From: Prochlorothrix hollandica PCC 9006 = CALU 1027
GTDB lineage: Bacteria > Cyanobacteriota > Cyanobacteriia > Prochlorotrichales > Prochlorotrichaceae
Length of the DNA: 51,762 bases
Reading direction: 5' to 3'
Assembly: GCF_000332315.1 (NCBI RefSeq)
Contig: NZ_KB235939.1
Span: forward strand, 313,028 to 364,789
Part shown: positions 23,501-43,527 of the stretch, piece by piece
Numbering within the stretch: position 1 is the stretch's first letter
Layout of the letters: each line of letters begins with the position of its first letter
Notes under the pieces: generated by a model
The model's input: only the letters and a program-made list of their open reading frames with translations
Database searches by the model: none
Told to the model about the DNA's origin: nothing
Translations under genes and position numbers: made by a program

Positions 23501-23602
23501 ATAGCAACCCTAAATCAGTTGTAGGCATCTTGATGGCTGAAACCCTTGGTGTGGTGTGCCCCCGGAGGGAGTACACCACACGACCCATTTAGGACTGCTG
23601 TA
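23501..23602. repeat. Repeat family A, copy 2
   Basis: A full-length copy with the same inverted ends and GC-rich middle as 3828-3930. It separates the zinc-ribbon and membrane-protein genes. Confidence 0.85.
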
Positions 23603-23969: not shown

Positions 23970-24071
23970 ACAGCAACCCTAAATCAGTTGTAAGGATCTC
24001 GATCTCTGTAATCCCTTGTGTGGTGTGCCCTCGGAGGGAGTACACCACACGACCCATTTAGGACTGCTGTA
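23970..24071. repeat. Repeat family A, copy 3, truncating a Pc-attI-like module
   Basis: A full-length copy. Its right end (actgctgta) joins directly to an attI-like module at gcagtctaaag, removing that module's cassette junction. This suggests insertion within the module. Confidence 0.8.
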
Positions 24072-27145: not shown

Positions 27146-27328
27146 TACTCAATACCAAAATCTCTAATGTTGTCCGATCCAATTGTGTTATACACCGATC
27201 GCGTAACAATTATTTATCTTTGCGATCGCCGATAATTTCTCGGAACTAAACAACCAAGAGAACCATTTTTGCTTGCCCAATCTCGAATGAAATCAGACAA
27301 CTTCAACGGGCTTATCGGTTTAGTATAA
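27146..27328 (-). other. ORF-less cassette, near-copy of the first cassette at attI
   Basis: It begins G|TTATAC at 27329/27328 and contains a matching R'' (GTATAAC, 27187-27193). About 180 bp align with 42042-42231. The second half of its attC is replaced by the family C/module composite. No start codon gives a credible ORF. Confidence 0.65.
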
Positions 27329-27412
27329 CGGTCTAGTTGAGCCGCCTCAGATAAATCTTAACTTCTACAGATCACAACTTCTTGAACGGTCGGCTCCAAC
27401 GCAGTTTTAGAC
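27323..27412 (-). other. attC site of the DUF433/DUF5615 cassette (90 bp)
   Basis: Minus strand: R'' GTCTAAA, L'' TTGGAGCCG, central region, L' CGGCTCAA, spacer, R' G|TTATAC. L'' and L' pair with one extra base, as in functional attC hairpins. R'' complements the G|TTAGAC that starts this cassette at 28389/28388. Confidence 0.78.
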
Positions 27413-28919: not shown

Positions 28920-31499
28920 CTACTTTTTCCCTCTAACATATTTCATCTTTAAGGATGATTTGAAAAGGCGACCAACACGAAGCTGCCCTGGATAATCTGG
29001 ACGGTCTTCAAACATTCCTAAGTTTTTCATTCTCTCAATTGCAGTCCTAATATCTCTTTTATCTATATTTACTTTGGCAGTAAGTTCTGAGACACATTCA
29101 TCCAACTTAAATGGTGTCTTTAAACCTTCAAAAGCATCTAATAATGCTTTAATCTTTGCTTGATTTTCAGAAAAATCATCTGACAAGCTTACCAAATAAT
29201 TTAATTCAGACTGAAGTTGACTGAGGTATTCTCTAGCTGCTGCTTCATGAGCAATAAAGATAAGACTTTGACTGATCTTTCCTTTTCCTTCTTCAGTTTG
29301 AGATCCTTGGAAAGAGCCAACATCAGTTGGCTGAGGATCAGCGATTACTTGAAGAAATTTATCAAAAACTCGTGGATAGTATCTCAGTTTATCACTAGTG
29401 CTAATCTCAGGTCGGTCACTTGCGCTATCAGCAAAGTACGTTTTGAGAAATGTTTTTGTCGCAAGATTATTTCTGCGTATTTTTTCAGGAAAGGCTTTCA
29501 TCAAAAGGACTTCACATTCCTCAGTTGGTAAAGAACCTTTAAGAATATCAGCTCTATTTTCTTCTATATCTTCAATTAAGCTTGGGAACTGTTCCTTATA
29601 CCACTGAATTCGAGATATCCGCGACAAAATGAAGTTGAAGATTTTCTGTGTGTCCCAGCTTAAATATAGACTTTTACCATGAAGCTGTTGTTCAATGTTT
29701 TGGAAGCCTCGTCCTACTAAATCGCTTCTTATAAAAAGTTTAAGATGTATGTATTTAGATAGCCTAGAATCTGTTTCAACAGTTTGTATAAAACGGAAAA
29801 GGGCTTCAGTATAAGTAAAAATCAGCTTAGCGTTAAACGCTGTTTCAAGACCATCGATCAAAAAAGTGCGTTTAGATTTTCCCTCTATCTTTTCAAGAAT
29901 CCGCAAAATTGGGTCATCACTTGTAGGTTGCTCCATCTCCTGAGAAAACAACCTTCCTAGCTCATCAGTAGATGTTTCAGGTGCATCAATTGCAGCAGAT
30001 AGTAGATGCCACCATAATTTTTCAGGAGTGTCTTTATATAGGTCCGCTGCTCTTGTTAGTTCTGGACTAGGAGACTTTAATCCTTTATTATCTTTACTGT
30101 TTGAGTCAACTAACAGTGGTTCACCAACCCCAGCCTTTGAAAGCTCTCGAAGTAAGCGGGTTTTACCTGTTCCCTTACGCCCTAAAATATATGAAATTGA
30201 ATTATTATGAACACTGAGTTCTCGAAGAGCTTCTGTCTGAATTAAGTCACCTTCATCAGATGCACCACTTGGACTTAGTAATAAAGTATTTTCGGCACTA
30301 CTTTCAGTGATTTTATAGCTAACATTGAGAATACTACGAAGTTTGTTGAGTGATTCAATACTCAAACCAGATAACTGATTCTTCTCTGGTAATCTGCTCT
30401 GCCTGAAAGCGCTATCATACGACCAGACAATCCAATGATCTTCAAGCTCAACAGAAGAGATTTCTGCCTCTTCTTCAAAACTGTCTGAGATTTCAGCAGC
30501 TTCAGAGATTGCTTCAACAAGAATCTCTAACAGTGCATCAATCTGCGGATTATTCCGATGTCTATATGAATCTAAATTTTCATCATCTGGCTTCCATGAA
30601 ACAAAAACCCCAGGATTAGCAGAGTTAGTTCGGAGGACTGATTTTATAAAATGTTCAGCAGGTCGCCACTGTTCATCAAGACGAACACAAACAACTGTCG
30701 GACCAGGAAGTGTATTCATCCAAGGTAAGGGTACTGGTGAAAGTCCTGATCTATGATCGATTAATAGAGCGTCATATTTGTTCTCTATTGCAAATTCTAC
30801 AATCCGTTTAGCAGCATCCTCAATAATCATAGGTTCTAGAGCGCACCGAAGAGCAAATGCAGATGCATCAATATCAAATTCTGCTAGCTTAGGTCTACAA
30901 GCTAATAAATCTACATATCCACTTCCTTCAGGTGTCCTAACACGTTCAGGAATAATATCGGATGTAGATTGAATAACCCCTAAGAGAGTACTAGATAAAG
31001 TTCGAGAAGTTCGAGCGTAGATTATATCAAGAGAGGGAGCTTCAATATCACTATCAACTACAAGAACTTTCCATCCATCTTCTGCCAGAGTAGTTGATAG
31101 AAGTCCAAGAAGGGTTGAACGGGCTTGCCCACCCTTGTAGCCATAAAAGTGAATAACTTTAATTCTTGTAGACGGCTCTTCTGTAGAACTTATTTCTTTT
31201 AATTCCTGATCGATGAGAGCACTCAACCAATGGTGTCCTCGATTTTTATTGTTAGGATATTCTTCTAAAAATTCATCAGCAGTGAGTAAGCGTAATGAAA
31301 GTAAGGAATTGTGTAAGATTTTTCGTAGTTCTGCCACATTGATTTTGATTGAACGGCAGAAATCTAGTTCACGGTCATCTAGTTCTACCTCATTAAATCT
31401 AGAGGATATACATATTAGATGAACGTATGGAAATCGAAATACTGTTTTGATTTCACAAACTTTCTTTGCTGCTTTTAGCAGACGATGTGCATTCATCAT
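28920..31499 (-). CDS. Large conflict-type ATPase: ParA-like domain plus second P-loop domain and C-terminal helices (859 aa)
   Basis: Residues 1-100 are an unassigned N-terminal region. At 117-135 a deviant ParA/MinD-type P-loop appears (FYGYKGGQARSTLL), followed by VLVVDSDIEAPS (149-151 DSD) and LLIDHRSGL near 246. A second Walker A lies at 440-447 (GRKGTGKT), with a Walker B-like FLIDGLE about 100 residues later. The C-terminal 100 residues (ELTAKVNIDKRDIRTAIERMKNLG) look like a winged helix. The combination resembles proteins named KGGVGR-motif variant ATPases in databases, with a variant KGGQAR. The start overlaps the upstream HEPN-like gene (ATGA), so the two are co-translated. Probably a defence-type sensor NTPase; this is inference. 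Confidence 0.75.
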   Translation of the reverse strand: MMNAHRLLKAAKKVCEIKTVFRFPYVHLICISSRFNEVELDDRELDFCRSIKINVAELRKILHNSLLSLRLLTADEFLEEYPNNKNRGHHWLSALIDQELKEISSTEEPSTRIKVIHFYGYKGGQARSTLLGLLSTTLAEDGWKVLVVDSDIEAPSLDIIYARTSRTLSSTLLGVIQSTSDIIPERVRTPEGSGYVDLLACRPKLAEFDIDASAFALRCALEPMIIEDAAKRIVEFAIENKYDALLIDHRSGLSPVPLPWMNTLPGPTVVCVRLDEQWRPAEHFIKSVLRTNSANPGVFVSWKPDDENLDSYRHRNNPQIDALLEILVEAISEAAEISDSFEEEAEISSVELEDHWIVWSYDSAFRQSRLPEKNQLSGLSIESLNKLRSILNVSYKITESSAENTLLLSPSGASDEGDLIQTEALRELSVHNNSISYILGRKGTGKTRLLRELSKAGVGEPLLVDSNSKDNKGLKSPSPELTRAADLYKDTPEKLWWHLLSAAIDAPETSTDELGRLFSQEMEQPTSDDPILRILEKIEGKSKRTFLIDGLETAFNAKLIFTYTEALFRFIQTVETDSRLSKYIHLKLFIRSDLVGRGFQNIEQQLHGKSLYLSWDTQKIFNFILSRISRIQWYKEQFPSLIEDIEENRADILKGSLPTEECEVLLMKAFPEKIRRNNLATKTFLKTYFADSASDRPEISTSDKLRYYPRVFDKFLQVIADPQPTDVGSFQGSQTEEGKGKISQSLIFIAHEAAAREYLSQLQSELNYLVSLSDDFSENQAKIKALLDAFEGLKTPFKLDECVSELTAKVNIDKRDIRTAIERMKNLGMFEDRPDYPGQLRVGRLFKSSLKMKYVRGKK

Positions 31500-31900
31500 A
31501 GACTTATTCCCCTATTGATCAGGCTAGTCTTAATATCCTTCATGATTTCTAAGGCTTCTTTTAATTGGCTGTCTGTGGATTTTCCAGGAAAATCAGTTTC
31601 ATGCCTTAAATATCTGATATCAGGGTAACGGTTAGCATCAACATTAACCTCAGATCCATCTCTATAGGTGCAGTATAAAGCGGAGAGTTTAGATTCTAGT
31701 TGTGTCCCTAGAGAAGTTTCACCCAGATCATTAGTCAGCCAATCAATGATACAGTGTCCCCTTTTCCATGGACCAGATTGATGGAAGTGATCCTTTATCG
31801 CAAGCTCTAGCACTACCAAGGAGCAGTAGAGACATAAAAGAGGATTACTAGAATTTGACCCCCCAACCTTGAAGGATTGTTGATTATAGCTGTGAGGCAT
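31496..31900 (-). CDS. HEPN-like small protein co-translated with the double ATPase
   Basis: A helical protein of about 134 aa from the ATG at 31900 (MPHSYNQQSF); the frame extends to 31930. The pattern SLVVLELAIKDHFHQSG, then HCIIDWLTND, DGSEVNVDANRYPDIRYLRH and a long final helix suggests a HEPN-type fold, but a clear R-x4-6-H motif is not evident. It shares a 4-bp ATGA overlap with the 859-aa ATPase and is the first gene of the cassette starting at 32070. It could be an effector gated by the ATPase. The family call is tentative. Confidence 0.6.
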   Translation of the reverse strand: MPHSYNQQSFKVGGSNSSNPLLCLYCSLVVLELAIKDHFHQSGPWKRGHCIIDWLTNDLGETSLGTQLESKLSALYCTYRDGSEVNVDANRYPDIRYLRHETDFPGKSTDSQLKEALEIMKDIKTSLINRGISL

Positions 31901-32064
31901 AGCAATTAAAACAAGGATTTGAACCTGCAACTCGGACAGACTGTCTGGTGTTAATTATAACCACTTAACAGCTTGGGCTATGACAGCGCACGTATTTTTA
32001 ACTTGTTAATCTCTCACTCTTGTCAACAATCTTCAAACTACTGTCCTCACCAGGATATGAAGCA

Positions 32065-33110: not shown

Positions 33111-33250
33111 ATATAACTATTAAGTAGGAAGCATTTAGCAGTCTAAAGTATCAAAATTTGGAAAGGGCTGTAAAAGCCTTCTCGCCAGCGATCGACTGTA
33201 AAGGTAGCACTGGATAGCTCTGGTGTCAAGTATGGCGAAGTGCAGGAATA
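33111..33250 (-). promoter_or_regulatory. Pc-attI-like module M6
   Basis: Minus strand: TTGACA, 17 nt, TACCTT, leader and cctacttaatag|TTATAT at 33117/33116. It lies about 165 bp upstream of the DUF433/DUF5615 pair. Confidence 0.65.
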
Positions 33251-33253
33251 TAA

Positions 33254-33384
33254 GTAACTGTTCAGGGGGGGACGAAGTTAGTACGTTTCAGCCCTCCGAT
33301 CGAAGGTTAACATAACCCAAAGTGCGACGATCCTAGATTTTCAGAGCCTGAAACCCGCATTCTCCCGTGGACCTCTGAATAGTG
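33254..33384. repeat. Repeat family C, copy 6
   Basis: Near full length; the right terminus (gaatagtgg) is altered. With module M6 it makes up an ORF-less cassette-sized unit, 33117-33452. A reading frame at 33307-33561 runs through this repeat and the neighbouring attC and is not a gene. Confidence 0.75.
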
Positions 33385-33446: not shown

Positions 33447-33532
33447 GTCTAACGGTGAAGTTGTGCGGCTGCAGATAATCTTGAAAACCAACCGATAACC
33501 TCTGTACCGTCCGCACTAACGCAGTGTTAGCC
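33447..33532 (-). other. attC site closing the six-gene cassette (86 bp)
   Basis: Minus strand: R'' GGCTAAC (contains the TAA stop of the AAA+ gene), spacer, L'' TTAGTGCGG, central region, L' CCGCACAA, spacer CTTCACC, R' G|TTAGAC. L''/L' pair well. R'' complements, in six of seven positions, the G|TTAACC that starts this cassette at 42015/42014. This is the best-formed attC in the window. Confidence 0.85.
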
Positions 33533-35530
33533 TGCATTAATTTCTGGGACAAGAGAGCCATCTTGATTTAACCCTACGGATAAGATCCGGCATGAAAGCA
33601 TATCACTGTCAGGAAACTCTTGAAAAAGCCAACTATTTAGGGGCTTCTCAATAAAAGTTTCCAGTAACGATTTTATACGTCGTCCTCCAAGAATTAAGTT
33701 TCTTTCTTCTTTCATCCGAAGCGATATTACTTCTAAAACAGAAGGCATAAACTTAATAAAAAGCTTGTATTTTTCTTTTGTAATTTCAGAGTATTGTTGG
33801 AGAAACTTATCAGCAATCGCATTAATAAAATCCTCTCGCAGTAGATCGAAGACAATAATGTTGTCTCCTAATCTTCCTAGTAACTCTGCTCGACCAATAT
33901 AATTGCTAAAATACCACCGTACTTCTTGATCAAAATGTTGCTCTACCTCTGAGTAAGAAGGCATATTTTCTTCTTGAACTTGTTTCATAATACCAGATCG
34001 AATTGTCTCACCTGTGTGATGGTTAGTCAGATCTGATGCACCAATGTTGCTTGTGAAAATAATCACTGTTTGGTTGAAATAAACTGTTTGACCTTTACCA
34101 TCTGTTAGTCTACCATCGCTCAGGATTTGTAAAAATTTATCCATAACTTTTGGTGTAGCTTTCTCAATTTCATCGAAAAGAAGAATGCTGTATGGCTGCT
34201 CTAATACGCGATTAGTGAGTTGCCCACCTGCTTCAAATCCTACAAATCCTGGTGGCGCACCAGTAAGTTTTTCAGCAGCATGTTCTTGTGCATACTCACT
34301 CATATCAAAACGAATTAAAGAGTTTTCATCAACAAACAAGAGCCTTGCTAGGGCTTTCGCTAATTCAGTCTTGCCAACACCAGTAGGACCAACAAAGAAA
34401 AAGATACCTTTGGGTTGAGCTGATGACTTTCCACCACTCATGCTTAAGCCAATCCTGGCACTTGCTAGCATTGATGTAACAGCTTCCACAGCCTTTGGCT
34501 GCCCAATAACGGATCGAGACAACTCTTCCTTCGCAGAGGCGATTCTTTCAGGACTAATTTTTTCCCAGGGATCATCTCGTCTGCCAAACTTGTAAAAATC
34601 AACTAACTGTCTTACATTCTTTTCTCTTAATGGGATCTCATCTCGCCATGAGATGCTTCTTAAAGCTTCTAAATCTACTGTATGAAATCCTTCTGTCAGG
34701 TCAGCTAATTCATCAGCTAGTGCCTCTAGCTGCGAAGGAACATTATTAGCGGGCCTCTTGATACTAATTTTATCACCTTCAAAAAATCCGCTAAAGCCTT
34801 CACGAGGACGTAAAGATCTCAACGCAAACTGACGACGTTCATCTTTATTTAAAGACGAGACTTGAATCATTTCAACTAGTGGATTGTCCTTGTAGACCCA
34901 CTGAGGAATTCTCGCTAGATCGCTTGCCACTAGAATTAAACTATTTCTATAACCAGCCAAAGTACCTTCTGTTAGAAATGCCGATTCGAGTGTACACATT
35001 TTGAGCAGCATCAAAAGATTGCGCTCTTCAACACCATATTGGTTAGGATCGGAGGTAAGCATATCTACAGTATCAACGATTGCCGCTACTGAAGTCACGC
35101 TTTGAGACATAGCCATTCTCAAGTTACCAAAAGCGGCTTCTGGCAGAATTCTGATATTTGTATTTTGCCTTGTATTTATCCCTGGACTCCGGCGAGGTGG
35201 GGGAGCCATAGGATTAGCAGTCGTTTCCGGTACAGGTGCTTCGTCGGCTGGCGATTGTGCATGATAACTGAGGGATTGATCTTGGATAAGAGCATTGAAT
35301 CGCTCTCTCATGGAATCTGCTAAATAGCTAAACCCATTAACAGGACTGTAACGAATGATTAGATCAAAACCCAGTTCTTTTAAAGAACTATTGATAATCT
35401 TATAGACAGTTTGTCGTTCATCTCTCCACAGAAACTCATCATGAATATTGCCATACAAAATAATGTGTTTACGGCAATGAATTTGCTTTTCAAGCTCAGT
35501 TAGCCAGCGAAAATAGATGGTGTTACTCAT
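33527..35530 (-). CDS. ClpB/ClpA-type AAA+ ATPase with degenerate N-terminal domain (667 aa)
   Basis: The C-terminal half is a Clp D2-like AAA+ module: VIGQPKAVEAV at 341-351, Walker A GPTGVGKT 381-388, RFDMSEY, pore loop GAPPGFVGFEAGG 424-436, Walker B LLFDEIEKA 450-458 and sensor 1 FTSN. A C-terminal small domain follows. The first 240 residues look like a divergent NTPase domain lacking a Walker A (HIILYGNIHDEFL; later AAIVDTVDML). A proline-rich linker lies at 93-118. Disaggregases of this type thread proteins through a hexamer. Last gene of the Hsp70/vWA operon; it starts 1 bp from the upstream stop. Confidence 0.92.
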   Translation of the reverse strand: MSNTIYFRWLTELEKQIHCRKHIILYGNIHDEFLWRDERQTVYKIINSSLKELGFDLIIRYSPVNGFSYLADSMRERFNALIQDQSLSYHAQSPADEAPVPETTANPMAPPPRRSPGINTRQNTNIRILPEAAFGNLRMAMSQSVTSVAAIVDTVDMLTSDPNQYGVEERNLLMLLKMCTLESAFLTEGTLAGYRNSLILVASDLARIPQWVYKDNPLVEMIQVSSLNKDERRQFALRSLRPREGFSGFFEGDKISIKRPANNVPSQLEALADELADLTEGFHTVDLEALRSISWRDEIPLREKNVRQLVDFYKFGRRDDPWEKISPERIASAKEELSRSVIGQPKAVEAVTSMLASARIGLSMSGGKSSAQPKGIFFFVGPTGVGKTELAKALARLLFVDENSLIRFDMSEYAQEHAAEKLTGAPPGFVGFEAGGQLTNRVLEQPYSILLFDEIEKATPKVMDKFLQILSDGRLTDGKGQTVYFNQTVIIFTSNIGASDLTNHHTGETIRSGIMKQVQEENMPSYSEVEQHFDQEVRWYFSNYIGRAELLGRLGDNIIVFDLLREDFINAIADKFLQQYSEITKEKYKLFIKFMPSVLEVISLRMKEERNLILGGRRIKSLLETFIEKPLNSWLFQEFPDSDMLSCRILSVGLNQDGSLVPEINAG

Positions 35531-36813
35531 TAGCTTCCTCCTCTTGACTGTTTCGCATCTGTTGATAAATCTGTAGCTGTTCGAGTAATACGATTCGGAT
35601 CTTTACCTTGCCATGAAATTTCACCCATCTGAATGCCAAATTCCTGTTGCAAGGCGGTATGCATTTCGGTTAGTACTGCTTCTGCTTCATCGCAAATTGC
35701 TACTGGACTACCATCTGCAATGGATGAAACGGTGTTTTTGGAGTAGCCATCGACATCGTACCAAACTTGCCCTTCTACAGGGACGTTAACACTAATTGCT
35801 CGACCTGCTGCGGTAGCCGTGAAAACTTTAGCTGTGGAGGGGTGTCCTTTGTGTTCATCCTCAATGGAGAGGACTGCAAAACCCATATCTTGCAAGGTAG
35901 CAACAATAGATTGGGTAATATAGTCACGCTTATCTGCTTTTAGCTGGGCGATGTTTGCCTCTTCAATTATTTGCTTTTCTTGTGCTTGGATTTTTGCCAA
36001 GATCTGGCTTGGTTGATCAAACTGTTCCGAGGCAATGGCTTGCTGGGCTTGTTTCAGTTGATTTTCAAGTTGTGCCATTGTGTGAGAATGCCAAAGCATA
36101 ACTATAGGATCAGCTTTAAGACCTGTCACTAGATCTTGAATTTGTCCAACTATCTGCTCTGCTTCGGCTTTGCGTTTTTCCCACTCGGCTCGGCGTTGAC
36201 TAACTGCCTGAGTGTGTTGTTTGACCACTGTACTTGCATGGTTGATGGGAGCTTGCACAGTTTGAGGACTTCCTGAAGCCAAGGCTGATCGTACAGCACC
36301 CAAAGCCTCCTGGACTGAACTTTGACCTGTAGCATCAAATTTACTGGCATCACTTGCGGGAATACGTCCTACTCCTCGTTCTAGTTCTTCAAGTTCAAAT
36401 TGCAGTCGCTCAATTTCTGCTTTGCGCTTTTTCTCTTCATCATCGCGCCGTTTGCGGGTAACAGCTTTGTCGCAATCCTGCAAAATCTGGTTGAGTTCAG
36501 TTGCCACATTTTGCAGTCGTGATTCATCTTGAGCTTGACAAATGGTATTAATTTGATTTTGGCAACGCTGTTGTAAAGCCGTAACATCTTGGGGATACAT
36601 GGACGATTGCTGTTGCTGAATTTTACTGGCAACAGATTGCTGTTGAGAGTTAACTCTATTTCTCAAGTTTTCTAGACGTTGACGACGCTCTCGTTCTGCG
36701 GCTTCTGCTCTGAGCCTTGCTTCCTCAGCAGCTTTGCGCCGACGTTCTTCTTCTAGTTGCTGTTGTCTCTGTCGCTCTAACTCTGCTGGTGAATATTTGG
36801 GTGTGCCACTCAT
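35530..36813 (-). CDS. Coiled-coil protein of the Hsp70/AAA+ operon (427 aa)
   Basis: Residues 1-60 are a highly charged helix (RQQQLEEERRRKAAEEA), and coiled coil continues in stretches to about 310. A compact C-terminal domain (about 315-405; DYITQSIVATLQDMGFAVLS, VNVPVEGQVWYDVDGY) is mixed alpha/beta and unrecognised. It may be a scaffold or adaptor linking the AAA+ ring to the Hsp70. Its stop and the next gene's start are adjacent, so the two are translationally linked. Confidence 0.75.
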   Translation of the reverse strand: MSGTPKYSPAELERQRQQQLEEERRRKAAEEARLRAEAAERERRQRLENLRNRVNSQQQSVASKIQQQQSSMYPQDVTALQQRCQNQINTICQAQDESRLQNVATELNQILQDCDKAVTRKRRDDEEKKRKAEIERLQFELEELERGVGRIPASDASKFDATGQSSVQEALGAVRSALASGSPQTVQAPINHASTVVKQHTQAVSQRRAEWEKRKAEAEQIVGQIQDLVTGLKADPIVMLWHSHTMAQLENQLKQAQQAIASEQFDQPSQILAKIQAQEKQIIEEANIAQLKADKRDYITQSIVATLQDMGFAVLSIEDEHKGHPSTAKVFTATAAGRAISVNVPVEGQVWYDVDGYSKNTVSSIADGSPVAICDEAEAVLTEMHTALQQEFGIQMGEISWQGKDPNRITRTATDLSTDAKQSRGGS

Positions 36814-36836
36814 AGTTTCCTCCTTACTTTAAGTAG

Positions 36837-37472
36837 TTATTGTGGGTTAACAATTACGGAGCGCTGAGACATTTGAGATTCAAATTCTCGTCGAAAATTT
36901 GGCTGGGCGGGAACTCCTGAAAAACCAACTTCTCCAGTCTCATTCAAGAAAAATTCTAGCCCTGCTGATCGATCACTTTGAGATTGTAAGAAATCTCGAT
37001 ATCGATCGCTTAAGAGCAACAGCCTTTGATTGTTAGAACCCCTCCAGAGTAAATCATCTTGTAGGTTTTCTTGGTACATACCTTCAACTAAAAGATCGAT
37101 TTTTGTTAATAAAAGTTTTTGGGCAATATCACCTTGAGATTTCAAGTATTCAATACGATAGCCTGTGTAGCACATAACACCAAGATCTCTAACTTCTCTA
37201 ATTTGATCAATTAAAGTAGATAAAGCTTCGGCTTGCAACATGGGTTCGCCGCCCGACAAAGTAACGCCCTCAATATTGGATTGACTGAGTACCCAAGCGA
37301 CAAGCTCAGAAATATCCACCTCTTCGCCAGAATCTCGATCCCATGATTCGGGTACGATGCAGCCCTTGCAACCAAAATCGCAGCCTTGCACCCAGATAAC
37401 TGCTCTGGCATAGGGACCAAGTACTTTAACTGGAGAACGACGTTCGAAAACCCTGAGCTTACTGGGCTTCAT
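36837..37472 (-). CDS. Radical SAM protein, activase-like (211 aa)
   Basis: Radical SAM enzymes bind a 4Fe-4S cluster through CxxxCxxC and cleave S-adenosylmethionine to make a radical. The motif is at 31-38 (CDFGCKGC) and GGE lies at 74-76 (TLSGGEPM). Size and layout match NrdG/PflA-type activating enzymes, which install glycyl radicals. No glycyl-radical partner is in the window. The ATG at 37472 follows AGGAGGGGAAG and overlaps the upstream stop by 14 bp. Its place in a chaperone-like operon suggests it modifies a partner protein; this is inference. Confidence 0.9.
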   Translation of the reverse strand: MKPSKLRVFERRSPVKVLGPYARAVIWVQGCDFGCKGCIVPESWDRDSGEEVDISELVAWVLSQSNIEGVTLSGGEPMLQAEALSTLIDQIREVRDLGVMCYTGYRIEYLKSQGDIAQKLLLTKIDLLVEGMYQENLQDDLLWRGSNNQRLLLLSDRYRDFLQSQSDRSAGLEFFLNETGEVGFSGVPAQPNFRREFESQMSQRSVIVNPQ

Positions 37473-39339
37473 CTTCCCCTCCTGTGCTTTCCATTGGCGG
37501 CAAATCACTGGGAGGTTCTCCTTCAATATGAAAAGCAGGTAGCCAGTAATCTTGTTGTCCTGCGAGTTTATACCACCTGTTGTCTAGTTCCTGGTTCGGG
37601 GAAATTGTCTCTTTCCAAGGTTCACCAAAAATCCATCCCTCAAAATCTAGTTCTGCGTTATAGCTTGCCTGTAAACCAGCTTTAGCTTCTTTCCGGGGAG
37701 AATAACGAAACGCTAGTCCTGCTCTGCACGTTACTTTGCCCTTGAAAGTCCCGAAAGATTTTTCTGGTTCGCTAGGTGCTGGATTTTCACCACTTGATTC
37801 TGAATGGTCTTCAGACCCTGAAGATAAAGGTGAAGGTGATTCGCTTTGTCCGGAGGGTAACTCAGATGTATTTTCAGTTTCTTCGACTTTGGAAGCATCA
37901 CCTCCGGGATGTTGAGGTTCCTGTGTCCCACCTTCTGGAATCTGTGGGTTGTCGAGTTGAGGATCTGAACCTTGCGGTTCGGTTGGTGACGTAGGCTCAG
38001 GCTCATGGGTCATAACATCAGCCTTGACCAATATAGTCCCCTTAATGCGATAGCCAGCACAAATGGTCATCTTAATTAGACCTTGATGATCATCTCTTGT
38101 GTCGTGGGCATTGTCGTCAAAGGTAGTTCCATTCTCTGGGATAAACAATTCTCCTGAGTTGGTATCATTTACAATATCTCGAACAATCTTTAAGCCTTTT
38201 CTAACAAATTCTTTGATTTCAGGTAAGGCTTCGTCTGTTGTTTCGAGGTTGGCAATTGATTTCAAGTCTTGAGCAATACGTTGAGTTGTTTCCTCAACAT
38301 ACTGCTCAATTGCTTCATCGGAGTGGTCTACACCCTTAGCACGAAGTAACTCAACTTGGACTTTCTCTTGAATTTCTTGGAAGATAGCTGGTGTAGGACT
38401 AAAATCCTTGATATCTGAGAGTGCATCCATAATCAGATGCAACTCAGTATCAACTTCAGTTTTATCTTGAGCAAAATAAGCCATGCCATCACCAAAAACT
38501 CGCCGAGATAAGATCGACTTAATGGTAAAGAATTCTTCGGACTTGAAATCACTGCTAGCTTTAGATTTGAAGCCTTGAGACTTCCAACCATTCAACACTA
38601 TAGAACTTACTTCATGAAGTGTTGGTTTGATGTGGGAAAATTCACTTTTGAGTTGATCGGAACGAGATCCGCCTCCACCAAGTTCAGAGTGGGTGTTAAG
38701 ACCCCGTAAGCGCATTGTCGCCAAAGAAAGTTTTTGTTCTGTTTCCTGAAGTTCTTGCTCAATCTCTTGAACCCGCCGATCTGAATTCTGCTTTAATTTT
38801 TCCAGCTTGTCCTTATCCGTTTTCAATAGATCAATATGGTTTGCCAATTCGTCCAATGTACGAAACCGAGGAAACAGGTGATCCCAGCTTGCCGAGATTT
38901 TTCTATATTCATCGGCATCCTTATAAGATGTGGCATATTGACTGTTTCGGTTTCTCTCGTTAGTTAGCTCAGAAGAAAGGCGGTGATTATCATCACGCAA
39001 GTTCCGTAGTTCGGTGTTAGCTCTAGATTCAGAAAGTTGGATGACTTGATCTTCTAGGTGTTGCTTGGCAGATTTAAGATCACTATTTTCTGACAATAGC
39101 CGTTGACATTCTTCCTTAAGTTGCTCTTCACTAAGGTTGGAGATGTCTTGAGTCTTTGACTCTTCAGGAAATAGAGAGAGAAATTTTTTCAGAAAAACTA
39201 CAGTACCTGCTTTTCCGTAACTTTCAACCAACGGATCTAATATGTCTCTTCGTTCAGAATTAAATCGGAGAGTGTGAATAGGGCTGTAGAGTTGATACTC
39301 ACATCTAAATACAATTTCAAATTCAAATCGGTGCGCCAT
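37459..39339 (-). CDS. Coiled-coil protein with GrpE-head-like and SH3-like regions (626 aa)
   Basis: The N-terminal 50 residues are unassigned. Coiled coil runs from about 65 to 225. Residues about 335-455 look like GrpE: long helices and then a small beta region with FIPENGTTFDDNAHD, ICAGYRIKGTILVKADV, comparable to GrpE's FDP..H and GYRL...A.V pattern. A P/S/E-rich linker follows (455-540). The C-terminal 85 residues (CRAGLAFRYSP, WYKLAGQQDYWLPAF) resemble a bacterial SH3 domain. GrpE is the nucleotide-exchange factor of Hsp70, and the adjacent upstream gene encodes an Hsp70-like ATPase, which supports the reading. Remote homology; needs structure-based confirmation. Confidence 0.65.
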   Translation of the reverse strand: MAHRFEFEIVFRCEYQLYSPIHTLRFNSERRDILDPLVESYGKAGTVVFLKKFLSLFPEESKTQDISNLSEEQLKEECQRLLSENSDLKSAKQHLEDQVIQLSESRANTELRNLRDDNHRLSSELTNERNRNSQYATSYKDADEYRKISASWDHLFPRFRTLDELANHIDLLKTDKDKLEKLKQNSDRRVQEIEQELQETEQKLSLATMRLRGLNTHSELGGGGSRSDQLKSEFSHIKPTLHEVSSIVLNGWKSQGFKSKASSDFKSEEFFTIKSILSRRVFGDGMAYFAQDKTEVDTELHLIMDALSDIKDFSPTPAIFQEIQEKVQVELLRAKGVDHSDEAIEQYVEETTQRIAQDLKSIANLETTDEALPEIKEFVRKGLKIVRDIVNDTNSGELFIPENGTTFDDNAHDTRDDHQGLIKMTICAGYRIKGTILVKADVMTHEPEPTSPTEPQGSDPQLDNPQIPEGGTQEPQHPGGDASKVEETENTSELPSGQSESPSPLSSGSEDHSESSGENPAPSEPEKSFGTFKGKVTCRAGLAFRYSPRKEAKAGLQASYNAELDFEGWIFGEPWKETISPNQELDNRWYKLAGQQDYWLPAFHIEGEPPSDLPPMESTGGEDEAQ

Positions 39340-39359
39340 GATTTTTAAAGCCTCCCAAC

Positions 39360-41144
39360 TTAATAACTAGAAGAAAATCGGAATTCGCAGCGTTCTCGAT
39401 TGCCGCTTATCGGATCGATCGCATAAGCAATAATCTGTGATTGACCAAATTGCATTTCTATATTCATCGGTTTAGGTGAACCATCTGGTGATGCAAATGG
39501 AAATCTTATATCCACCTGAGAAAGCTCGGTTATCTCATCTTTTTCGAGGTTTGTGTAACGAACCTTAGGATTAATTGTTGAAAGAAACTTTACGGTAAGC
39601 TCTGTCGCATTAGGAGGAATAATATAGCTACGAGTTACAGACGCATTACTTGGAATTCGCTCACCCGTAGCGACGAATATGTCAAATCTATTTGTACAAC
39701 CATCCAGCGAAAAGTCAGTTCCAAAAATCCTACTTCTCTCTCGTGCAGATATACGTTGACCATGTTCGTGATCTAGCCGTTCATCGAAGTCCATCATAGT
39801 TTTGGTGCCATAGGTCAGCGTTGATCTCCGAGCAATCACAACTCCTGGGTTTACCCCAAAAGAAGCCGCACCTTGAAGCACCGCTGCACCCGGACGATCT
39901 GGAATGATGACCTGCTCTACTCTGTCACCAAACTCATCCCGGATTCGCTGCTTGAGTACAGGCGACTCCGCAAAGCCACCTACCAAAAAGAGAATATCGC
40001 AACGCCGATCTTCAAGGGCAGTAAATTGATTTCTGACCTTACCAATAAGTTGATCAACTACAGACTTAAAGATTGCCTCCATGTCATCATGGATCAGTCG
40101 AATAACCGTATTGTCCCCCCCCTGAACATTCGCTAATCGATCTAGAACTTCAGGGAAACTTGTTTCCAGAATCTTCTCCAAGCGGCGAGGCATTTCAATC
40201 GATGATCGCCAATTCGGAACTGCGTCATAGCTGCACTTGATATTTTCCCAGGTCTCGCTCATCAGCTTGGCATATTCCACAGGCCACTGGGTTTCAAATT
40301 CATCCATTGCCTCGGCACACAGCTTACGAGCCAGAAACTCCCGAAAATTTCGGTCTACATACTTAGAACCATGCAATCCACCTCCACAAGGCACTAACTC
40401 ATCTAATCCCTCTCCCAATCTAACTTCATGTACGGTAATATCTACCGTACCCCCGCCCGCATCAACAATCATGATGACCTTACCAGATTCCAAGGCAACT
40501 TGGTTTTGCCGCATCATTACCTGCTGACAATGCACCGCTGCCGCCTCTGGTTCCAAAACCAAAAGTAACCGTTCTGCCTCTTGTGTTCCTTCACCAATCA
40601 AGCCTGCTAACTGAGCCGCATGACGCATAATCTGCTTGCTGTCCTCCCGCCACACCGCAGGCACAGTCAAACACCAGCGAATCTCATTCTCATCTAATAA
40701 ACCTTCACCGCCCAGGGTTTCCGCGATATCACTAAGGGCGACCTCTTTAATGCGTTGAAGAAATTCAGCGATTAATTTCACTACTGGAAACTTCTTACCA
40801 TCACGCATGATAAAGGGACCATCCTGATCCCGATCCTTACCATCATGAAGTAGTGTCTTGAAATTCTCGATCAGAATATACCCCTTTTCTGAGGCTTCCT
40901 CTCGCAGTTGAGTAAACCGCTTCCTTGCAGTGTGCCCCCATGCCTCAACCGATCCATCAGGACGGAATAAAATTTCTGTTGGGGTTTTTGGGTAAAACTC
41001 ATTGGTATCAGGCCATCTGTTGCGAAAGATTGGATCTTTCGCACCCTCATCCTCAAAGAACTGATAAGCATAGCCCGATCGCGCTGTACCAAAGTCGATT
41101 GCAATAGAAATTCGATAATTTCTACCTCTAAAAGCTAAAATCAT
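39360..41144 (-). CDS. Hsp70-like ATPase (594 aa)
   Basis: Actin/Hsp70-fold ATPase: phosphate-1 loop IAIDFGTARSGYAY at 14-27, phosphate-2 MIVDAGGGTVDITVHE near 225-240, and adenosine motif LFLVGGFAESPVL near 385. The region after about 430 lacks a canonical DnaK substrate domain and lid. The pattern DFGTxxSGYA and the insert style recall HSPA12-type Hsp70s more than DnaK. It starts 42 bp after the vWA stop. Probably the ATPase core of the operon's machine, with the 626-aa protein as exchange factor. Confidence 0.92.
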   Translation of the reverse strand: MILAFRGRNYRISIAIDFGTARSGYAYQFFEDEGAKDPIFRNRWPDTNEFYPKTPTEILFRPDGSVEAWGHTARKRFTQLREEASEKGYILIENFKTLLHDGKDRDQDGPFIMRDGKKFPVVKLIAEFLQRIKEVALSDIAETLGGEGLLDENEIRWCLTVPAVWREDSKQIMRHAAQLAGLIGEGTQEAERLLLVLEPEAAAVHCQQVMMRQNQVALESGKVIMIVDAGGGTVDITVHEVRLGEGLDELVPCGGGLHGSKYVDRNFREFLARKLCAEAMDEFETQWPVEYAKLMSETWENIKCSYDAVPNWRSSIEMPRRLEKILETSFPEVLDRLANVQGGDNTVIRLIHDDMEAIFKSVVDQLIGKVRNQFTALEDRRCDILFLVGGFAESPVLKQRIRDEFGDRVEQVIIPDRPGAAVLQGAASFGVNPGVVIARRSTLTYGTKTMMDFDERLDHEHGQRISARERSRIFGTDFSLDGCTNRFDIFVATGERIPSNASVTRSYIIPPNATELTVKFLSTINPKVRYTNLEKDEITELSQVDIRFPFASPDGSPKPMNIEMQFGQSQIIAYAIDPISGNRERCEFRFSSSY

Positions 41145-41186
41145 TTTTTACTATCTCCTTTTGGGCAGCGGTTAACGTTTTAACAA

Positions 41187-41795
41187 TCAGTCATCTAGGG
41201 CAGCATTAAGCAGACCAATAACCCCAATTTCCTCTAGCTCCTCCATAGACTTGGTATCAACAATATCAAATTTAGCCTTGCCTATGAGTTCATCATCTAG
41301 ATGGGCAAGAAAGTCCGAAGCCCCCTTATCATACCCAACTTGAACAAACGATATACCGAGATCCTCGTCTTTCTCAATACTGTTAGCTGCATTGACAATG
41401 ACTTTCTCTAGTGCATCTTGATCATTGGGCTTGCCATCCGTAAAAACAATGATGATCATCGGTTTTGCTGTACCGACTCTACGCCCCTGGAACCATTCAG
41501 GAGTTAATATTGCTTGTAATGCTGCATCTGTTGCAGTATTTCCAATCGGTTCTACTTGGTCATAAATGTCTTGAATTTTGGCAGGGGTGGTGTTTTCATA
41601 TACCTTCACTTGGCTACCAAACACAACGACTGTAATCCCATCTGAGTCAAGTTTATTGGCACGGGCTGCTACAGCCTCAACGTTCTCACGGGCATAGTCC
41701 CAGCGAGATTTGCTGTTGGGGCAATCTTCAATGACCATAGAGCCAGAACGGTCTAGCAAGATAGCAATGTCATAGCTTTTAAGGCGATCGCTCAT
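41187..41795 (-). CDS. vWA-domain protein, TerY-like (202 aa)
   Basis: One von Willebrand A domain with an intact metal site (MIDAS): DRSGSM at 15-20, Thr in GNTATDAAL and Asp in VFTDGKPND. vWA proteins of this size act as binding or regulatory adaptors in bacterial conflict and tellurite-type systems. First gene of the six-gene operon, preceded by AGGAG; it begins about 220 bp after the start of its cassette. Confidence 0.92.
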   Translation of the reverse strand: MSDRLKSYDIAILLDRSGSMVIEDCPNSKSRWDYARENVEAVAARANKLDSDGITVVVFGSQVKVYENTTPAKIQDIYDQVEPIGNTATDAALQAILTPEWFQGRRVGTAKPMIIIVFTDGKPNDQDALEKVIVNAANSIEKDEDLGISFVQVGYDKGASDFLAHLDDELIGKAKFDIVDTKSMEELEEIGVIGLLNAALDD

Positions 41796-42014
41796 GAAAT
41801 TTCTCCTGACTAATCAATATTAGAGTAGCAAAAATACGAATCTAAGGAGATAAGGGTACAGTTGAGCAACGGCGATCGTTCAGTATATTCATAACCACGA
41901 AAATATGCCGTGACCCCTCTTGGTAAAAGGGCGATCACCATTTTTCCAAACTGCCTTACCAATGTTTTCAAGAATAATTCAGTAACTCACACGGAGGCTA
42001 TGCTAGCAGGTTAA
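41796..42014 (-). promoter_or_regulatory. Leader of the six-gene cassette
   Basis: From the junction G|TTAACC (42015/42014) to the vWA start. No ORF. An own promoter is possible but I cannot mark boxes with confidence; the resident Pc lies about 500 bp upstream. Confidence 0.4.
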
Positions 42015-42097
42015 CGGTTGAATTGAGCGGCAAGCGATCGCCTTTAAACTCCAACACCAAAATCCCTAATGTTGTCCGATCCAATGATGTGTCATAC
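42009..42097 (-). other. attC site of the first, ORF-less cassette (89 bp)
   Basis: Minus strand: R'' GTATGAC, spacer, L'' TTGGATCGG, central region, L' CCGCTCAA, spacer TTCAACC, R' G|TTAACC. The L arms pair imperfectly. R'' complements the cassette's own start G|TTATAC in six of seven positions. Confidence 0.65.
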
Positions 42098-42231
42098 ACC
42101 GATCGCTTAACAATTATTTATCTTTGCGATCGCCGATAACTTCCCGGAACTAAACAGCCAAGAGAACCATTTTTGCTTGCCCAATCTCGGATGAAATCAG
42201 ACAACCTTAACGGAATTTCGGTTCGGTATAA
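42015..42231 (-). other. First cassette at attI, without an ORF (217 bp)
   Basis: It is bounded by G|TTATAC (42232/42231) and G|TTAACC (42015/42014). No credible start and stop. Most of it is shared with 27146-27328. It separates Pc from the six-gene cassette and could act as leader RNA for it. Confidence 0.65.
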
Positions 42232-42300
42232 CTATTAAGTAGGAAGCACTTAACAGTCTAAACTGTCACAGCTTAATTAAGCTGTGACAACTTGCTTAGA
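42226..42300 (-). other. attI-like integration site
   Basis: The minus strand ends tgcttcctacttaatag|TTATAC. A second core-like GTTAAGT lies 16 bp upstream (42248-42254). Upstream of the core, a 24-bp perfect palindrome (42265-42288) occupies the region between the sites and Pc. By position, the first junction after intI, this is attI; exact limits are not determined. Confidence 0.68.
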
Positions 42301-42546: not shown

Positions 42547-43527
42547 ATGGAGCCATTACTGTCCACCTCTGCTCAACAAAAACTGCTGGATCAAGTGCGC
42601 GATGTGATTCGGCTCAAACGCTACAGCCACAAAACCGAACAAAGTTATGTGGCTTGGGTTCAGCGTTACATTCTGTTCCACAACAAACGCCAGCCCCAGG
42701 AAATGGGAACCGAAGAAGTTGAAGCCTTCCTCACCCACCTGGCCGTGACCGAAAACGTTGCCGCCTCCACCCAAAACCAAGCCCGCAGTGCCTTAATCTT
42801 TCTCTATCGCCATGTTTTGCAGCAACCCTTAACCGAAAACATTGAAGCCATTCGAGCCAAGCGCTCTAAAGATTTACCCACCGTCCTGACCATAGCCGAA
42901 GTCAAGGCCGTACTGGGAGCCATGACCGGAACACCTCAGTTGATAGCAGAACTGCTGTATGGAACGGGGATGCGCTTGAATGAAGGTCTCCAGATCCGCG
43001 TCAAGGATGTGGATTTTGGTCAGCAGCAAATTACTGTGCGAGATGCCCAGGGGAACCAGGATCGGGTAACTGTCTTACCCCAGCGCATTGTTGAACGACT
43101 CCAAGCCCATTTGGTCTTGATCAAGCATCAGCACCAACAAGATTTAGATCAGGGCTACGGTCAGGTTTATTTGCCCTATGCCTTGGAGCGAAAATATGCC
43201 AACGCCGATCGAGATTGGATTTGGCAATATGTTTTTACCGCCAGCAATCGCTCTGAGGATCCCCAAAGCGGTATCGTTCACCGTCATCACCTTGACCCCA
43301 GCATTATTCAAAAAGCCATCAAAGTCGCCGTTCGCCAAGTTGGTATTGCCAAGAAAGCAAGCTGCCATACCCTACGCCACAGCTTTGCCACCCATCTTTT
43401 GGAAAATGGCTACGATATTCGCACGGTTCAAGAACTACTGGGCCATAAGGATGTGAAAACCACCATGGTTTATACCCATGTTGTCAATCGTAATGGATTG
43501 GGAGTGCGCAGCCCTCTTGACCTTTGA
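42547..43527 (+). CDS. Integron integrase IntI (326 aa)
   Basis: A tyrosine recombinase with all catalytic residues visible: Arg in [20 protein letters not shown], the GH of [10 protein letters not shown] and the Tyr in MVYTHV. It carries the extra insert that defines IntI among tyrosine recombinases ([19 protein letters not shown], then DWIWQYVF), before the HRHHLDPS segment. N-terminal SAM-like domain at about 10-95. Length matches the family. IntI recombines attI with folded single-stranded attC hairpins. It reads away from the array, the standard arrangement. Appears intact. Confidence 0.97.

Follow-up and report, generated by a model that had tools for sequence, protein, structure and literature searches.

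A six-gene operon with Hsp70-, radical SAM- and AAA+-type proteins carried as one integron cassette in Prochlorothrix hollandica, a possible anti-invader conflict system

A stretch of 51,762 nucleotides (51.8 kb, here called the window) from the cyanobacterium Prochlorothrix hollandica PCC 9006 = CALU 1027 (contig NZ_KB235939.1, positions 313,028 to 364,789) carries an integron in which one segment of 8.56 kb is, judged from its sequence, a single integron cassette with an intact accessory operon. This cassette (33453-42015) encloses six genes, for a von Willebrand factor A (vWA) protein, an Hsp70-family ATPase, a 626-amino-acid (aa) protein with a possible GrpE-like domain, a radical S-adenosylmethionine (SAM) enzyme, a coiled-coil scaffold and an AAA+ unfoldase. 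The last three appear to be the defining unit, a triad (MSGxPK coiled coil, AAA+ unfoldase, radical SAM enzyme) which is inherited together while its other partners are exchanged. Taken as a whole, the element may be a cassette-borne operon in which a constant unfolding-plus-radical triad works with an exchangeable switch/capture module as an anti-invader conflict system, a reading to which we give a probability of about one half (0.5).

The integron and its six-gene cassette

Along the minus strand the order is intI, an attI-like end at 42232, a cassette named A, a junction at 42015, the six genes, the closing attC (33532-33447), a junction at 33453 and then more cassettes. The features are as follows (a slash marks the junction).

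42547..43527, plus strand: integron integrase IntI (TIGR02249, 446 bits, E 6e-134, cut-off 265)
42216..42268, minus strand: attI-like site, ending CTTCCTACTTAATA/GTT at 42232; the same end occurs at 33117, 32071, 28389, 26782 and 25805
42015..42232, minus strand: gene-poor mini-cassette A, 217 bp, between attI and the six-gene cassette
42009..42030, minus strand: L'-R' half of the cassette A attC; the six-gene cassette begins G/TTAACC at 42015
33447..33532, minus strand: closing attC of the six-gene cassette, with R''-L''/L'-R' arms and a bulged base

The six-gene cassette is thus separated from attI by cassette A (42232-42015) and, as corrected here, does not lie directly at attI. Cassette A, whose peptide reads RLSDFIRDWASKNGSLGCLVPGSYRRSQR, has a second copy at 27330-27150 behind a different junction (R'' GTATGAC/GTATAAC), and because it occurs twice behind different junctions its start is defined.

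The closing attC is the top-scoring attC-like structure in the window (score 14), a score equalled in 0 of 20 dinucleotide shuffles. Its R'' GGCTAAC includes the TAA stop codon of the AAA gene, a feature also found in two neighbouring cassettes (DUF5615 and DUF2442), and agrees with the cassette start GTTAACC at six of seven bases. Its L'-R' half is identical to the half-site at 42009-42030 at 18 of 22 bases, and these two sites (42009-42030 and 33447-33468) form a family with 27323-27344, the three being the only sites on that strand with at least 17 of 22 bases. The R''-L'' arm is common to the six-gene cassette and to the cassettes ending near 27323 and 26144. A chance attC is rejected on the shuffles, the position of the stop codon and the repeated half-sites. 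The G+C content is 0.43 in the operon and 0.41 in the array, against 0.53-0.57 in the flanks. The first-pass annotation of this DNA had read six packed minus-strand genes as one long cassette, and that reading is borne out by the adjoining intI, the exceptional closing attC and the agreement between R'' and the cassette start.

Anti-phage cassettes of integrons are short and hold one or two genes, and integrons are reported to lack defence systems with more than two genes (PMC12409362), in agreement with what had been remarked at first pass on the usual size of cassettes. Beside such small defence cassettes, one of 8.56 kb with six genes is exceptional whatever it does. Relatives of intI were found in 24 of 373 sampled cyanobacterial genomes, and the host genome has a second intI (66%) at C5:624405-625382 as well as a third, truncated one at C6:71846-72301 (79% over 152 aa).

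Products of the six genes

The operon (33527-41795) consists of six minus-strand open reading frames (ORFs) with gaps of 42, 20, -68, 23 and -1 nt.

41187..41795, minus strand: vWA protein, 202 aa (PF13519, VWA_2, 2e-12; vWA-TerF-like 1e-7)
39360..41144, minus strand: Hsp70-family ATPase, 594 aa (PF00012, 2.4e-11, far below the DnaK cut-offs)
37459..39339, minus strand: 626-aa protein with a coiled coil, a possible GrpE-like beta-domain and a C-terminal SH3b-like region (read by eye)
36837..37526, minus strand: NrdG-type radical SAM enzyme (PF13353, Fer4_12, 9e-32), triad member
35530..36813, minus strand: MSGTPK coiled-coil scaffold with a C-terminal alpha-beta4-alpha domain and no Pfam family, triad member
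33527..35530, minus strand: ClpA/B-D2-type AAA+ unfoldase (PF07724, AAA_2, 1e-48), triad member

The AAA protein has Walker A, Walker B, a GFVG pore loop, sensors and an arginine finger, all intact in 14 of 14 relatives. In its N-terminal domain a strand and loop resembling a P-loop read GNxxD in 14 relatives, a degenerate form, and the domain is probably non-hydrolysing. The ClpB model aligns with the protein only at 554-832 of 853, and by the ClpB criterion of active AAA rings there is one canonical AAA module, not two. The MoxR-type model AAA_3 reaches only 0.024, compared with 1e-48 for the Clp-type AAA_2.

The phosphate-binding Hsp70 motifs IDFGT, DAGGGTVD and VGG are kept in both copies of the operon, that of the window and that of the Oscillatoriales genome described below; the protein may resemble HSPA12. 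No DnaJ domain was found by Pfam among the six proteins. The 626-aa protein has no match to PF01025 (GrpE), though four GrpE genes were detected in the same genome, while its beta-domain aligns in register with the host GrpE genes (hhalign, P 0.029). The GrpE-like call made earlier is therefore tentative and only suggestive, the in-register alignment speaking for it and the missing Pfam match against it. The AlphaFold2 (AF2) model of this protein (predicted local distance difference test, pLDDT, 42.7) is too poor for a fold search.

For the scaffold, AF2 predicts a 300-residue helical rod followed by a C-terminal alpha-beta4-alpha domain (pLDDT 82.8), and Foldseek gave no match at E < 0.001. 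In a second fold comparison the rod scored Z 7-11 to helical bundles including the DnaK lid, and the C-terminal domain Z 7-10 to the spermine-synthase N-domain and KA1 domains, both within the stated noise range of the tool.

The radical SAM gene likely starts at the ATG at 37472, according to alignment with a relative, and its CX3CX2C and GG(E/D)P motifs are kept in 14 of 14 sequences. NrdG is the nearest family, with 109.6 bits to TIGR02491 (E 1e-31), below the cut-off of 126.1. NrdD (PF13597) was found in none of six triad genomes, and the Gly_radical domain (PF01228) was not found in the host, in the Oscillatoriales genome or in the genomes G131 and G320, with positive controls detected in both searches; the latter domain is present in G002 and G066, two complete genomes which are returned to below. 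With no glycyl-radical enzyme in the host, there is none for the radical SAM enzyme to activate, and a role as NrdG or another glycyl-radical activase is rejected for this host. Viperin is likewise rejected, the score to NF038283 being 18.2 bits against a cut-off of 180, with the NrdG profile scoring far higher; the PADLOC viperin cross-match is weak (19.8 bits here and 28.5 in Acinetobacter). There is also an NrdG-like paralogue of about 210 aa, conserved outside the triad in five cyanobacterial genomes (G002:C1:184301, G066:C1:3319192, G286:C1:168401, G101:C69:70601 and G320:C40:8235), which is possibly a core gene.

The same operon in a second cyanobacterium

All six genes are present in the same order in an Oscillatoriales metagenome-assembled genome (RDYN01000044.1, contig 140 of G039, locus L018). 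Identities with the window are 76% for Hsp70, 48% for the 626-aa protein, 78% for the radical SAM enzyme, 83% for the coiled coil and 83% for the AAA protein. No intI was found in that genome, and no attC-like site flanks its operon. Because the same operon occurs without intI in a second cyanobacterium, it appears to be a pre-existing operon that became a cassette and is not specific to integrons, so that integron carriage is incidental to its function.

The 626-aa protein was found at full length in 2 of 386 cyanobacterial genomes and on no plasmid, and the AAA N-terminal domain in 6 of the 386. The six-gene operon is accessory, not core, and its genes being core and non-mobile is ruled out by these counts. 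The idea of a multi-gene machine whose set of genes recurs elsewhere is upheld by the Oscillatoriales locus, and the outcomes that would have told against it are not seen, as the genes are not always core (2 to 6 of 386), they do co-occur and the junctions are not chance matches. In the gene-neighbourhood check suggested earlier, the six genes co-occur again in the Oscillatoriales copy, which lies outside any integron.

A constant triad with exchanged partners

The triad is present in cyanobacteria and in alpha-, beta- and gammaproteobacteria, with many copies on plasmids and some on chromosomes (sampling outside the cyanobacteria depended on plasmids). It probably extends to Firmicutes, one of which has a similar set with an MSGPK protein. 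Full-length AAA homologues are carried on plasmids of Acinetobacter, Moellerella, Photobacterium, Polaromonas, Leisingera, Rhizobium, Caballeronia, Aristaeella and Geminocystis; wherever the surroundings were inspected, the operon or cluster also included a similar radical SAM gene. In proteobacteria the gene in the equivalent position codes for a hypothetical protein homologous to the cyanobacterial scaffold (hhalign E 8.5e-7, probability 91.5). Over 11 loci the three triad proteins have correlated pairwise distances (r 0.96-0.98), a correlation reached by only 1-2 of 2000 within-group permutations, which argues that the three are inherited together.

Rhizobium, Caballeronia and Aristaeella have proteins of 430-452 aa which also start with MSGPK. 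Those of Rhizobium and Caballeronia (450 aa) show no significant similarity to the scaffold profiles, and that of Aristaeella matches the scaffold in its N-terminal 60 residues, not significantly overall; from their position and MSGPK start they are probable scaffold members. The matches listed in E. coli genomes were rejected, these being ClpB-type cross-matches over 12-13% of the query. In pattern scans of viral contigs, none of the AAA, scaffold, Hsp70 and radical SAM proteins had a relative. A plasmid of Treponema succinifaciens (L052 11980-14135) has a relative of the radical SAM enzyme beside a different AAA ATPase, which gave no match to the AAA protein of the window, in a contractile-injection-like cluster (VgrG, baseplate proteins).

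The partners of the triad vary. The module in the window and in PH2015 is vWA, Hsp70 and the GrpE-like/SH3 protein. Geminocystis has two DO-GTPase-like proteins over the Pfam cut-off, a third below it, and two other proteins. In G002 and G066, two species of one genus, the order is vWA-FHA-PP2C-FHA-radical SAM-kinase/GUN4 and then kinase/GUN4-scaffold-AAA; in G066 a gene for a group II intron reverse transcriptase separates the two blocks (domains were read in G066, and G002 was assigned by order and similarity). In G320 the AAA gene lies on one contig with a Ser/Thr kinase, a TPR-SH3 protein and vWA, while another contig has Hsp70, a 361-aa protein and radical SAM, next to which lies a DO-GTPase-like protein that narrowly passes the Pfam cut-off. 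In Calothrix a different AAA accompanies Hsp70, TPR and radical SAM, and Aristaeella has a DUF4011 protein, kinases, FHA and a phosphatase.

Gamma-, beta- and alphaproteobacterial plasmids have an SF1 helicase and PIN module instead, seen in Acinetobacter and annotated in Moellerella, Photobacterium, Polaromonas and Leisingera. In Rhizobium there is a 2086-aa kinase-helicase protein with PADLOC matches to PDC-S37 (462 bits) and Hhe, its kinase-like part matching PD-T4-6. Proteins of about 2.1 kilo-residues beside an AAA-radical SAM pair are found at L024 14467-20727 (Rhizobium) and L051 12490-18795 (Caballeronia), the latter judged by length and position only. The helicase-PIN form is a plasmid system of five genes (helicase, PIN, scaffold, AAA, radical SAM) of alpha-, beta- and gammaproteobacteria, which is a good candidate for an undescribed defence system in its own right; one copy is on an Acinetobacter plasmid named pNDM1_010055. 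Its loci are:

L022 4743-14462
L025 4079-14032
L027 4716-14423
L028 4413-14324
L084 1925-12327

The exact six-gene set proposed at first pass as a system does recur in the Oscillatoriales genome, yet the unit that defines it appears to be the triad, around which the other partners are exchanged.

Relation to described systems

The searched text of Kaur et al. 2020 (PMC7159879) describes conflict operons with Hsp70+GrpE, kinase+PP2C+vWA and DO-GTPase switch modules. The DO-GTPase/GAP1 systems in it resemble the present one in having a constant core, swapped modules and the same switch parts, a likeness which extends to the DO-GTPase-like proteins of the Geminocystis and G320 triad relatives. 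The six window proteins, however, have no DO-GTPase match (PF19993/PF19975) and no GAP1-named Pfam match, no search having been aimed at GAP1, and the text as searched holds no core of a ClpA/B-type ring with an NrdG-type radical SAM enzyme. The MoxR-vWA ternary systems of the same source pair an AAA+ protein with vWA as here, and radical SAM occurs in some FtsH-ternary operons, whereas the AAA protein here is of the ClpA/B-D2 and not the MoxR type, and no VMAP, iSTAND or FtsH partner was seen.

With the DnaK-GrpE-ClpB disaggregase the operon shares an Hsp70 and a Clp-type unfoldase whose pore loop and Walker motifs are intact, and perhaps a GrpE. It differs in having one active ring, a degenerate N-domain and no J-protein, in its extra radical SAM, vWA and scaffold proteins and in being accessory. 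With NrdG/PflA activases the radical SAM enzyme shares the motifs CX3CX2C, GGEP and WRGSxNQ, but it scores below the family cut-off in a host without NrdD or a glycyl-radical enzyme. The likeness to prokaryotic viperins (pVip) is a weak radical SAM cross-match only. Anti-phage cassettes of Vibrio and mobile integrons (PMC12409362) are likewise carried beside toxin-antitoxin cassettes, but they are short, with one or two genes as against six genes in 8.56 kb.

Proposed function and alternative explanations

Judged from its anatomy, the likeliest role of the operon is that of an accessory conflict (anti-invader) system switched by NTP. The triad would be the engine, and the vWA, Hsp70 and GrpE-like/SH3 proteins an exchangeable switch/capture module. 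We infer that the proteins form a complex in which Hsp70 and the vWA protein would recognise or hold a target, probably a phage or mobile-element protein or a host partner perturbed by an invader, with the GrpE-like protein resetting Hsp70. The scaffold would hand the target to the AAA ring, the ring would pull it open and the radical SAM enzyme would place a radical-based modification on the exposed target, so that an invader protein is inactivated or a switched-on state is released. The coupling of the triad to GTPase, kinase/phosphatase and helicase-PIN modules is what one would expect of a conflict system whose core stays constant while its sensors and effectors vary. Neighbours of the triad include an anti-phage dCTP deaminase, DarT, toxin-antitoxin pairs and integrases.

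Several points weigh against this reading. The defence context was read locus by locus from a few loci, and PADLOC gave no system-specific match among the six proteins, only generic AAA and weak viperin cross-matches. The GrpE identity is weak, the version in G002 and G066 is chromosomal and could be a stable host function, and only one integron-borne copy of the operon is known, which bears on cassette mobility.

The best-surviving alternative, though an unlikely one, is an accessory proteostasis or stress-repair machine in which Hsp70, a GrpE-like protein and a ClpB-like ring would recover host proteins that have aggregated or been oxidised, with the radical SAM enzyme repairing or marking them. 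That Hsp70, a ClpB-like ring and a possible exchange factor share one operon fits such a machine, as do the chromosomal versions in G002 and G066. It fits poorly with the plasmid and integron carriage, with the nuclease-like partners in relatives and with the fact that most relatives have GTPases, kinases or helicase+PIN in place of the Hsp70/GrpE part. A self-contained disaggregase, as the gene content had first been read, is doubtful: the set lacks a J-protein and a two-ring ClpB, it has a single active AAA ring and an uncertain GrpE, and kinases or GTPases can stand in for its Hsp70/vWA part. Between the two roles first suggested, phage defence and stress repair, context favours defence as the more probable, and a stress chaperone keeps a smaller share.

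Less probable again is enzyme maturation, with the AAA ring and chaperones acting as an activase or insertase for the radical SAM enzyme, which would modify a host enzyme or a peptide product. NrdG-type enzymes are activases, and pairs of AAA and vWA proteins mature metalloenzymes (MoxR/CoxD-CoxE). The lack of NrdD or another glycyl-radical enzyme in both genomes with the six-gene operon does not agree with this, nor does an operon without a candidate substrate enzyme or short peptide gene, nor do the PIN and helicase proteins among the partners of relatives. The least likely explanation, that the sites are real and the operon came to lie between them otherwise than by moving as one cassette, or that the attC is a chance structure, would suit the single integron copy, the Oscillatoriales relative without intI or attC-like sites and the reported absence of multi-gene defence systems from integrons (PMC12409362), but it is opposed by an attC that is the best in the window and absent from shuffles, by the stop codon in R'' as in two neighbour cassettes, by the six-of-seven match of R'' to the cassette start and by the shared half-site family of both ends.

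Other elements of the array

Units of about 140 bp (about 90-96% alike) precede several cassettes, each with a promoter-like TTGACA-17-TACCTT and the attI-like end CTTCCTACTTAATA/GTT.

25805, 26782, 28389, 32071, 33117 and 42232, minus strand: attI-like units of about 140 bp

It is as if attI and Pc had been copied through the array, for which delta-attI cassettes offer a comparison (PMC12901181). A dispersed repeat of about 130 bp, resembling a miniature inverted-repeat transposable element and with the ends ACTATTCAGGGG...CCCCTGAACAGTTA, lies at 33254-33383 of the window and at some 30 other places in the genome, and is fused upstream of attI-like units in the array.

Neighbouring cassettes in the window code for DUF433/DUF5615 pairs, Fic and a KGGVGR ATPase. 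The last belongs to a two-gene cassette (28920-31930) with an 859-aa KGGVGR/Sll1717-type ATPase (below cut-offs) and a 144-aa protein without known family, which may be another defence candidate. There are also 33-nt repeats at 23549-23581 and 24018-24050, 436 nt apart, which are direct copies as well as inverted arms and flank a 107-aa ORF without known family.

Implications

No description of the triad was found in PADLOC, Pfam or the literature searched, and we know of no described immune system in which protein unfolding is coupled to radical chemistry on a target protein. A tentative and more far-reaching proposal, less probable than the reading given at the outset, is that the triad is the core of an undescribed immune or conflict class, in which the AAA ring would present a partly unfolded target to the radical enzyme, to be modified covalently, under the control of interchangeable Hsp70, GTPase, kinase or helicase-nuclease modules, with the whole six-gene version able to travel as a single integron cassette against the reported size limit. 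The six-gene cassette of 8.56 kb calls into question the published view that integrons lack defence systems with more than two genes (PMC12409362). Should the triad act in the way suggested here, unfolding would be coupled to radical chemistry across several bacterial phyla, often on plasmids. The exchange of Hsp70, GTPase, kinase and helicase modules around a co-inherited core would be a testable assembly rule for such systems.

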